A stretch of DNA of 33,261 bases from Pseudomonadota bacterium. Its GTDB lineage: Bacteria > Pseudomonadota > Gammaproteobacteria > Burkholderiales > Burkholderiaceae_C. Of this stretch, positions 3,234 through 6,228 are shown in pieces (within the stretch, counting starts at the first letter, position 1; each line of letters starts with the position of its first letter). The notes beneath the pieces are model-generated. The model had not been told where the DNA came from, did not search any database, and worked only from the letters and a program-made list of their open reading frames with translations. The stretch covers positions 1-33,261 of the forward strand of contig JAIUOM010000035.1 in assembly GCA_020161215.1 (NCBI GenBank). The letters are read 5' to 3'. The position numbers and the translations under genes were made by a program.

Positions 3234-6228
3234 ATTGCGGCGCCAGCAAGCGCCCCAGGTAGCGCCCGGTGTGGCTGCCCGGGTGCCCGGCCACCTGCTC
3301 GGGCGTGCCCTGGGCCAGCACGGTGCCGCCGGCGTCCCCGCCTTCGGGGCCGATGTCGATGACCCAGTCGGCGGTCTTGATGACGTCCAGGTTGTGCTCG
3401 ATCACCACGATGGTGTTGCCGGCCTCGCGCAGCTGCCGCAGCACCCGCAGCAACAGCTCGATGTCGGCGAAGTGCAGACCGGTGGTGGGCTCGTCCAGAA
3501 TGTACAGGGTGCGGCCGGTGTCGCGCTTGGACAGCTCCAGCGCCAGCTTCACGCGCTGCGCCTCGCCGCCCGACAAGGTGGTGGCGCTCTGGCCCAGGGT
3601 GATGTAGGACAGGCCGACGTCGAGCAGCGTCTGCAGCTTGCGGGCGATGGCCGGCTGGTCCTTGAAGAAGGCCAGCGCGTCTTCCACCGTCATGTCCAGG
3701 ATCTGGGCGATGTTGCGGCCCTTCCACAGCACTTCCAGGGTTTCGCGGTTGTAGCGCCGGCCGTGGCAGACGTCGCAGGGCACGTAGACGTCGGGCAAAA
3801 AGTGCATCTCGACCTTCACCACGCCGTCGCCCTGGCAGGCCTCGCAGCGCCCGCCGCCCGAGGATTGCGGCACGTTGAAGGAAAAGCGCCCGGGACCGTA
3901 GCCGCGCTCACGCGCCACGGCCACCTCGGCCATCAGCTCGCGGATGGGGGTGAACAGGCCGGTGTAGGTGGCCGGGTTGCTGCGCGGCGTGCGGCCGATG
4001 GGGCTTTGGTCGACGGCGATGACCTTGTCGAACTGCTCCAGCCCTTCGATGGCCTGGTGCGGCGCCGGCTCGGCGTGCGCGCGGTGGATGGCGCGCGCGG
4101 CGGCGGCCAGCAAGGTGTCGTTGACCAGGGTGGATTTGCCCGAGCCCGACACGCCGGTGACGCAGGTCAGCAGGCCGACCGGGAAATCCACCGTCACGTG
4201 CTTCAGGTTGTGGCCGCTGGCGCCGACCACGCGCAGCACGCCCTCGGGGGCCGGTTTTTCAGGCTTTTTCCGGCCTGGGCCGGCGCCCGGATTGCCAGGG
4301 CCGCTATCAAAAGATGAATTGCGCGTGCGCCGCGCCGGCACCTCGATGCGGCGCGCGCCGCTCAGGTACTGGCCGGTGATCGAGCCGGGCGTGGCCGCCA
4401 CTTGGTCGAAGCTGCCCTGGGCCATGACCTGGCCGCCGTGCACGCCAGCGCCCGGTCCCAGGTCGATGACGTGGTCGGCCGCGCGCATCATGTCCTCGTC
4501 GTGCTCGACCACCAGCACGCTGTTGCCGATGTCGCGCAGGTGCACCAGGGTGCGGATCAGGCGGTCGTTGTCGCGCTGGTGCAGGCCGATGCTGGGCTCG
4601 TCCAGCACGTACATCACGCCGGTCAGGCCCGAGCCGATCTGGCTGGCCAGGCGGATGCGCTGGGCTTCGCCGCCGGACAGGGTTTCGGCGCTGCGCTCCA
4701 GGCTCAGGTAGTTCAGCCCCACGTCGTTCAAGAACTGCAGGCGGTTGCCGATCTCGCGCACCACCTTGTCGGCGATCTCGGCCTTGGCGCCGGTCAAGCG
4801 CAGCACATCGAAATAGGCCTTGGCCTCGCCCAGCGTGGCGTGGCTGACCTGGTAGATGGCGCGCGCCTGCTCGCCTTCGCCAATGCGCACGTGGCGCGCC
4901 TCGCGCTTGAGGCGCGTGCCGCCGCAGTCCGGGCAGGGCTGCTGGCTGCGGTAACGGGCCAGTTCCTCGCGCACCACCTGCGAATCGGTCTCGCGGTAGC
5001 GGCGCGCCATGTTGGGCAGGATGCCCTCGAACGGGTGCTTCTTGTTGACCTTGCGCCCGGCCTGGGCGCCGCTGTCGAAGGTGTAGCTGAACTTGATCTC
5101 TTCCTCGCCCGAGCCGTGCAAGACGGCCCGGCGCGCCGCCTCGGGCAGCTCCTCGAACGGCGTCTCGACGCTGAATTTGTAGTGCTTGGCCAGGCTTTCG
5201 ATCAGCGCGAAGTAGTAGCCGTTGCGCCGGTCCCAGCCCTTGATGGCGCCGCTGGCCAGGCTGAGCGAGGGGAAAGCCACCACCCGCTCGACGTCGAACA
5301 CCTCGGTGGTGCCCAGGCCATCGCAGCTGGGGCAGGCGCCGACCGGCGAGTTGAAGGAAAACAGGCGCGGCTCCAGCTCGGCGATGGAGTAGCCGCACAC
5401 CGGGCAGGCGAACTTGCTGTTGAACAGGTGCTCCTTGCCGCTGTCCATTTCCAGGGCAATGGCGCGACCGTCGGCCAGGCGCAGCGCGGCTTCAAAGCTG
5501 TCGGCGAAGCGCGCGGCCATGTCGGGGCGGACTTTTAAGCGGTCGATGACGACGTCGATGTCGTGCTTTTCGGCTTTTTTCAGCTGCGGCAGGTCTTCCA
5601 CGGTGACGATCTGGCCATCGATGCGAAAGCGCACGTAGCCGGCGGCCTGCATCTGCTCGAACAGCTCGACGAATTCGCCTTTCTTCTCGCGCGCCACGGG
5701 CGCCAGGATCATCAGCCGGGTGTCCTCGGGCAGGGCCAGCACGTGGTCGACCATCTGGCTGACGGTCTGCACCGTCAGCGGCAGGTCGTGGTCCGGGCAG
5801 TACGGCGTGCCGGCGCGGGCAAACAGCAGGCGCAGGTAGTCGTGGATCTCGGTCACCGTGCCCACGGTGGAGCGCGGGTTGTGGCTGGTGGCCTTCTGCT
5901 CGATGCTGATGGCCGGCGACAGGCCCTCGATCAGGTCGACATCGGGCTTGTCCATCAGCTGCAAGAACTGCCGCGCATAGGCCGACAGGCTTTCGACATA
6001 GCGGCGCTGGCCCTCGGCGTACAGCGTGTCGAAGGCCAGCGAGGACTTGCCCGAGCCCGACAGCCCGGTGATCACCACCAGCTGGTTGCGCGGAATGTCC
6101 AGATCGATGTTTTTCAGGTTGTGCGTGCGCGCGCCACGCACGCTGATGCGCTGCGCGCGCAGGGCGGCGGCGAGCGGGCGGCCTTCGTCGTCCGGAGCCA
6201 ACGTCGGATCGGTCAAAAGAGGTTCCAA
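3232..6228 (-). CDS. uvrA: Excinuclease ABC subunit A (UvrA)
   Basis: UvrA is the ATP-dependent damage sensor of nucleotide excision repair, acting as a dimer that loads UvrB on DNA. All landmarks are present: Walker A GLSGSGKS at 55-62 and GVSGSGKST at 692-700; zinc cysteines 275, 278, 299, 302 and 795, 798, 818, 821; and two LSGGEAQR signatures. At 998 residues it is longer than the E. coli protein (940). About 22 extra residues lie between PARR and VLRVVGA, at the junction of the two halves, and their DNA matches the dispersed element of this window. No ATG fits the start: an in-frame TAA lies upstream, and the first usable codon is TTG at 6228 with a distant AAGG. A second TTG four codons on is an alternative. 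I found no clear LexA box (CTGT-N8-ACAG) upstream. Confidence 0.97.
4254..4323 (+). repeat. Dispersed element copy K, inside uvrA
   Basis: Read on the plus strand, this stretch has a T run, then CCGGCCTGGGCCGGCGCCCGG, a spacer, and CGCTATCAAAAGATGAATTGCG. That order and spacing match the intergenic copies. It lies entirely within uvrA and is translated in the opposite orientation as residues about 636-658 ([16 protein letters not shown] and a Lys/Pro-rich part), without a stop or frameshift. Confidence 0.6.

Follow-up and report, generated by a model that had tools for sequence, protein, structure and literature searches.

Rickettsia palindromic elements (RPEs) are dispersed palindromic repeats that lie in frame in a wide range of unrelated genes; the insert sits at a matching position in orthologs, and different groups of the repeat can occupy one gene across species (passages of PMC10969869 and PMC3767692). 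Nearly half of RPEs lie in open reading frames (ORFs) according to a part of PMC10969869, and a section of PMC3767692 weighs a hot spot against a common origin for RPE-4, RPE-6 and RPE-7 and favours common origin. In enterobacteria, RU-1 to RU-3 and intragenic ERIC are small dispersed open-frame repeats inside annotated genes (an excerpt of PMC2759123). REP/REPIN sequences with RAYT are high-copy short palindromes of bacterial genomes (parts of PMC2817692 and PMC3116915), and prokaryotic MITEs are short, high-copy and can give in-frame fusions (a part of PMC10969869). The element described here works like the RPEs, taken together with the Wolbachia palindromic elements, a likeness drawn from behaviour and not from sequence.

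We analysed a window of 33,261 nucleotides, meaning the whole stretch of DNA under study, from a genome (G000) of 4.52 Mb in 250 contigs. The closest named relative of the UvrA protein encoded in the window was that of Ottowia beijingensis (86%), and the host group is apparently the genus Ottowia of the Comamonadaceae. The window carried the following features, with residue numbers in UvrA counted from the tool-chosen TTG start.

477..542, minus strand: element copy, 55.9 bits
2478..2546, minus strand: element copy, 34.0 bits
3232..6228, minus strand: uvrA, 998 amino acids from the tool-chosen TTG start, with the Pfam UvrA_inter and UvrA_DNA-bind domains
4249..4317, minus strand: element copy inside uvrA, in frame, coding for 23 residues of the linker that joins the UvrA halves
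4278..4312, plus strand: core of the uvrA copy, consisting of GGCCGGCG, a spacer and GCTATCAAAA (direct repeat family D4)
7865..7939, minus strand: element copy, 50.6 bits
15288..15358, plus strand: weaker element copy, 24.0 bits, under an ORF at 13258-15375 on the minus strand
21915..21978, minus strand: element copy, 39.6 bits
24862..24919, minus strand: element copy, 33.0 bits
29085..29142, minus strand: element copy, 46.9 bits

On the plus strand, the uvrA copy was composed of a T-rich stretch, CCGGCC..GGCCGGCG, a spacer and GCTATCAAAA, in that order. The earlier note had recognised these ordered parts and placed them at 4254..4323, coding for residues of about 636-658. The parts and the location inside uvrA held, and the core proved to be a member of the D4 repeat family; the limits moved to 4249-4317 on the minus strand, about residues 638-660 of the protein. 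The extra residues at the junction of the two UvrA halves, which had been put at about 22 relative to the E. coli protein, were also found: opposite the copy, the aligned sequences of the solved UvrAs 2r6f and 9gxk have a gap of about 23 residues where their two halves meet. A profile built from 107 copies in the same genome, uvrA excluded, matched the uvrA copy at 28.1 bits (E = 2.7e-7); the score was 21.3 bits with a 30-copy model that left uvrA out and 27.8 bits with a profile of 93 non-genic copies of G000. When the 107-copy profile was run against 300 dinucleotide-shuffled versions of uvrA, the highest score was 7.4 bits. When the matched uvrA gene of each of 77 other Comamonadaceae loci was scanned along its whole length with the same profile, the result was 16.3 bits once and 5.0 bits as the next best score, and the maximum for these genes with a profile from a second genome, G001, was 5.7 bits. 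The uvrA segment belongs to the dispersed repeat family. The single 16.3-bit match was a 31-nt partial match to the G000 type of element at about 2463-2493 of locus L071, near residue 257 and outside the linker. An AlphaFold2 structure model (10-row alignment, mean pLDDT 54, pTM 0.37) was of too poor a quality for use.

The element is dispersed, partly palindromic and about 65-75 bp long. A search of G000 with the pattern SKYCGGCGTGGATN12GCTATYAAA, allowing up to three mismatches, gave 174 matches and the reversed control none, so that at least 174 matches are present in this genome. Seven D4 copies in the window stood in register, 25 nt ahead of GCTAT, an equal spacing that is partly built in because the repeat finder matches without gaps. 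The consensus starts with GATTGCTAC, which reads GTAG on the other strand and does not adjoin the core palindrome; in the REP/RAYT system a terminal GTAG or CGTC tag stands beside the hairpin. Within the window no Rfam family reached its cut-off, and a known RNA family was ruled out as the identity of the element. Phage records contained no match to it, and among the literature matches listed we recognised no paper describing it, which is not proof that it is unpublished. The 705-aa ORF at 13258-15375, which has an element copy near its start, had no Pfam match. Orientation was identical in seven of the eight window copies; in genome G252 all 16 places among those listed lay on one strand (totals 74 and 65), and a runs test on 63 listed places in G001 revealed no clustering by strand (z = -0.6).

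We examined the same linker in relatives. A UvrA-like match was found in all 29 genus genomes; G010 had a paralog only and G009 a broken gene without the linker, leaving 27 linkers that were scored. Seven of these scored at least 20 bits (G000, G005, G006, G013, G014, G015 and G027), with 21.8-54.6 bits for the six genomes other than G000 when the G001 profile was used. Two more lay between 10 and 20 bits (G007 and G012), five fell below 10 bits yet had GATAGC at the matching codon (G001, G002, G004, G016 and G025), one was ambiguous (G018), and 12 were without the element. Several species of the genus have the element in this linker, and others have none there. Outside the Ottowia-like loci, 66 of 77 family linkers were parsed, as 18 short, 45 long and three in between; the full uvrA genes of the other 11 were included in the profile control, and none of the linkers of these 77 loci matched the element profiles. 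The profile match and the absence from relatives support the central proposal of the earlier note, that a dispersed repeat was inserted in frame and supplied the uvrA linker. The search also flagged a TAG stop within the matched uvrA stretch of L117 (G028) and of the part of uvrA present in G009.

Trees of UvrA alone and of UvrA plus RpoB, built without L033-L035 (the same proteins as L115, L121 and L122), L139 and L142, did not resolve the backbone, so one origin followed by losses and several insertions were not distinguished by them. The loop GTCAGAC was common to the uvrA copies of G005, G014 and G027, and it occurred in none of 18 G001 loops and none of nine loops from other genomes, a set that omits L143, which repeats a G001 copy, and L151, the G013 uvrA copy itself. 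One G001 place, among those listed, did show GTCAGAC, next to an altered arm. A loop common to these three genomes and rare elsewhere points to descent there, and the loop comparison favours one old uvrA insertion for the three lineages. The insertion in uvrA looks old and common to several species.

We examined 113 distinct profile hits in G000 (90 fetched loci plus the window, out of at least 174 matches). Fifteen hits lay within an ORF whose base composition was of coding type on either side of the hit, and 13 were left after removal of two weak secondary hits (L029 586-625 and L216 387-419, both below 16 bits). L008, flagged only under a stricter filter, was set aside because its ORF is probably antisense. 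The genes with in-frame copies include thiL, truB, aroA, tex, gluQRS and tilS. Above the NCBIfam cut-off, the host genes were identified as GluQRS, the TilS N-domain, ThiL, AroA-Cmk, TruB, the PRK11768 kinase and both YjeF domains; RlmB-like and AddA-like matches lay below it, and Pfam supported AtuA, an MmeI-type methylase and Tex. The in-frame copies used both orientations and more than one reading frame. Compared with solved relatives, the net gain was about 5 residues in AroA, 7 in ThiL, 10 in Tex, about 12 in the kinase and 23 in UvrA, and the alignment of GluQRS to its solved relative broke at the element copy. Net gains this small indicate that in some genes the copy takes the place of native residues to the same extent as it lengthens the protein.

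Among element-free genomes, G003, G009, G024 and G028 keep a tex segment of similar length and residues, so that for this gene insertion is only a possible origin; the segment was shorter in G018 and G021 and longer in G023. What the element-free genomes have may be the eroded remains of an old copy, or else native sequence that was later overwritten where the element is found. Of 24 tex sequences (23 genomes, G016 twice), 17 had GCT for the A and then GTA or ATA for the (I/V) residue of AIEK(I/V)V, and the other seven had none of these codons there. In the same genes GCT, GTA and ATA made up 5.2, 3.1 and 2.7% of the codons for their amino acids. Judged by codon choice, the linked rare codons in tex are a DNA signature inside a conserved peptide.

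The family fell into two subfamilies. The G000 type had 174 matches in its own genome and at most eight in any of the 28 other genus genomes. The other subfamily, GCGCTT-N7-AAGCGC, occurred in 20 of the 29 genus genomes, the highest count being 589 matches and the control giving 0; in the wider family 68 of 250 genomes and 50 of 141 genera carried it at least once, and 33 of the 250 genomes had ten matches or more (counted from the table). We take this widespread type to be the older one. Calibration placed 93/93 G000 copies and 21/21 G001 copies on their own side, with the calibration copies staying in their own profile and four copies mislabelled as genic or not; the older-type profile was built from one genome, G001 (21 copies). 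The three G000 sites, in uvrA, tex and thiL, scored 27.8, 45.1 and 44.8 bits with the own-type profile and no higher than 7.5 bits with the G001 profile. In the other genomes, copies of at least 20 bits were found at 6 of 26 uvrA, 10 of 22 tex and 9 of 25 thiL sites. The new point is that the G000 copies are of its own subfamily at all three genes, whereas the strong copies at these sites elsewhere favour the widespread older type in 25 of 25 cases.

We also compared scores with copy number. Score rose with the number of matches in the host (Spearman 0.75 across 73 gene-sites outside G000, relatedness uncorrected and L287, one of two G016 tex loci, omitted). Several sites stood against such tracking. 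The uvrA copy was weak in some element-rich hosts, with 7.0 bits in G001 (145 matches) by that genome's own profile, 2.7 bits in G025 (170 matches) and 0.0 in G016 (199 matches). There was no copy in uvrA of G019 (48 matches), in tex of G018 (49 matches) or in thiL of G002, G004 and G012. The own type of G000 was favoured by weak sites in G007 (uvrA and thiL) and G017 (thiL), with 10.7-14.0 versus 5.7-7.8 bits, and by the second G016 tex locus (11.7 versus 7.1 bits), despite own-type matches numbering only 0, 1 and 3 in G007, G017 and G016. Tracking of the own type rests on the single genome G000, and uvrA is its weakest case.

Our preferred reading, to which we give a probability of roughly two in three, is that old in-frame insertions were followed by concerted change with the dispersed family, likeliest through conversion or template switching. 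An ancestral insertion would have survived at the tolerant UvrA junction because its length and stop-free frame allowed it. Thereafter the strong genic copies would have stayed similar to the dispersed copies of their host by concerted evolution, for which recombination or template switching among copies is the simplest route, while the remaining copies would erode or disappear. More tentatively, and at somewhat worse than even odds, copies of a selfish-like repeat inside conserved genes would change together with the non-coding copies of the genome, so that part of the UvrA, Tex and ThiL sequence would be dictated by the current repeat subfamily of the host and not by protein descent alone.

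Repeated entry of each lineage's active subfamily into the same few tolerant sites, with loss of the old copies, would give a similar pattern and is the least improbable of the alternatives, though still unlikely. UvrA has been hit several times, with a second repeat family at about residues 236, 263 and 388 and a third in the same linker (G005 and G014), and this option was raised for RPE-4/6/7 in a section of PMC3767692. Such re-insertion would be needed at three genes in the lineage of the window, and both the constant codon distance and length in tex across many hosts and the loop GTCAGAC common to uvrA of G005, G014 and G027 argue against it. We considered it about as doubtful, if marginally more so, that the element is a DNA signal for a host factor and that all copies are selected toward the current motif of the host, as for uptake sequences. 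The consensus positions are kept while the loop positions vary, and the linked rare codons in tex would fit such selection; but no factor was identified, and with copy number ranging from 0 to 589 across the genus genomes and coding-like ORFs holding just 13 of the 113 hits examined, a needed signal is not suggested.

Recruitment of the insert for a function, as a longer linker that alters UvrA movement or partner contacts, would explain why several species keep it where two domains join. We regard it as improbable, since its residues differ widely among species and 12 of 27 genomes are without it; the linker peptide is probably tolerated without a special role. Chance likeness of an ordinary variable linker to the repeat has a negligible claim: linker length and sequence do vary widely in the family and one other uvrA gene reached 16.3 bits elsewhere in the gene, but 28.1 bits against at most 7.4 in the shuffles, together with the 77 other uvrA genes and the 21.8-54.6 bits of the same linker in six other genomes (G001 profile), led us to reject it. 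Concerted change after old insertions remains the reading we prefer, and the two subfamilies serve as natural labels with which conversion, re-insertion and selection become directly testable.

Other repeats were found in the same gene. The second family, which is GC-rich, had matches in 23 of the 29 genus genomes; it lies in frame in uvrA at about residue 263 in G014 (L136), and related inserts were seen at about residue 236 in G016 (L137) and G025 (L132) and at 388 in G006 (L138). The third family, present in 20 of the 29 genomes, lies in frame in the uvrA linker of G005 and G014 (L121, L034 and L136), and inserts in tex (L296-L299, about residue 270) and thiL (L330) resemble it at the protein level only. 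Three repeat families thus enter one gene within the genus. Among the 18 G001 loops (L155-L174), the 7-nt palindrome loop was seen both ways, as GTCCATC/GATGGAC and GTCCAGC/GCTGGAC, which suggests loop inversion and is compatible with exchange at hairpins. The element also occurs on plasmids, with 51 plasmid records matching at E <= 0.01. LC623924.1 (L336) has older-type copies at 274-341, 603-660 and 925-980 (39.2, 46.5 and 41.1 bits), and R46 (NC_003292.1, L337) has one at 612-659 (35.7 bits) under a DUF1010 gene; the copies on both plasmids are near resistance genes. Our guess is that the plasmid stretches with the element originate in Comamonadaceae.

We also searched for Y1 transposase genes (PF01797), the companion genes in a REP/RAYT system. 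The element is, like REP/REPIN, a high-copy short palindrome. No Y1 genes were found in G006 (155 matches, 99% complete), G012 (44 matches) or G015 (138 matches, 76% complete); the remaining genus genomes mostly had 0-3, with or without copies, G020 had five and G027 had 20 (589 matches). Of ten loci examined, three had an element copy above 25 bits near a Y1 gene. In contrast to REP/RAYT, Y1 genes do not track the copy number of the element, except that G027 tops both, and on this ground a RAYT driver was rejected.

The element shares with RPEs its in-frame placement within unrelated protein genes (13 of 113 examined hits) and an element site common to orthologs, seen for uvrA, tex and thiL in some of the genomes. 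It differs in being about 70 bp against 100-150 bp, in its host, Comamonadaceae and not Rickettsiales, in the 13 of 113 hits in coding-like ORFs against nearly half of RPEs as given in a part of PMC10969869, and in having host-type copies at three orthologous sites. It resembles RU-1 to RU-3 and ERIC, by description, as a small dispersed open-frame repeat within genes, but those are 103-168 bp and belong to other hosts; with MITEs it has in common that it is short, high-copy and in frame within genes. The case carries a warning, that loops of conserved proteins can change through a DNA repeat and not through protein function. Repeats that contribute peptide segments to proteins in frame, known from Rickettsia and enterobacteria, are now seen in the Comamonadaceae as well.
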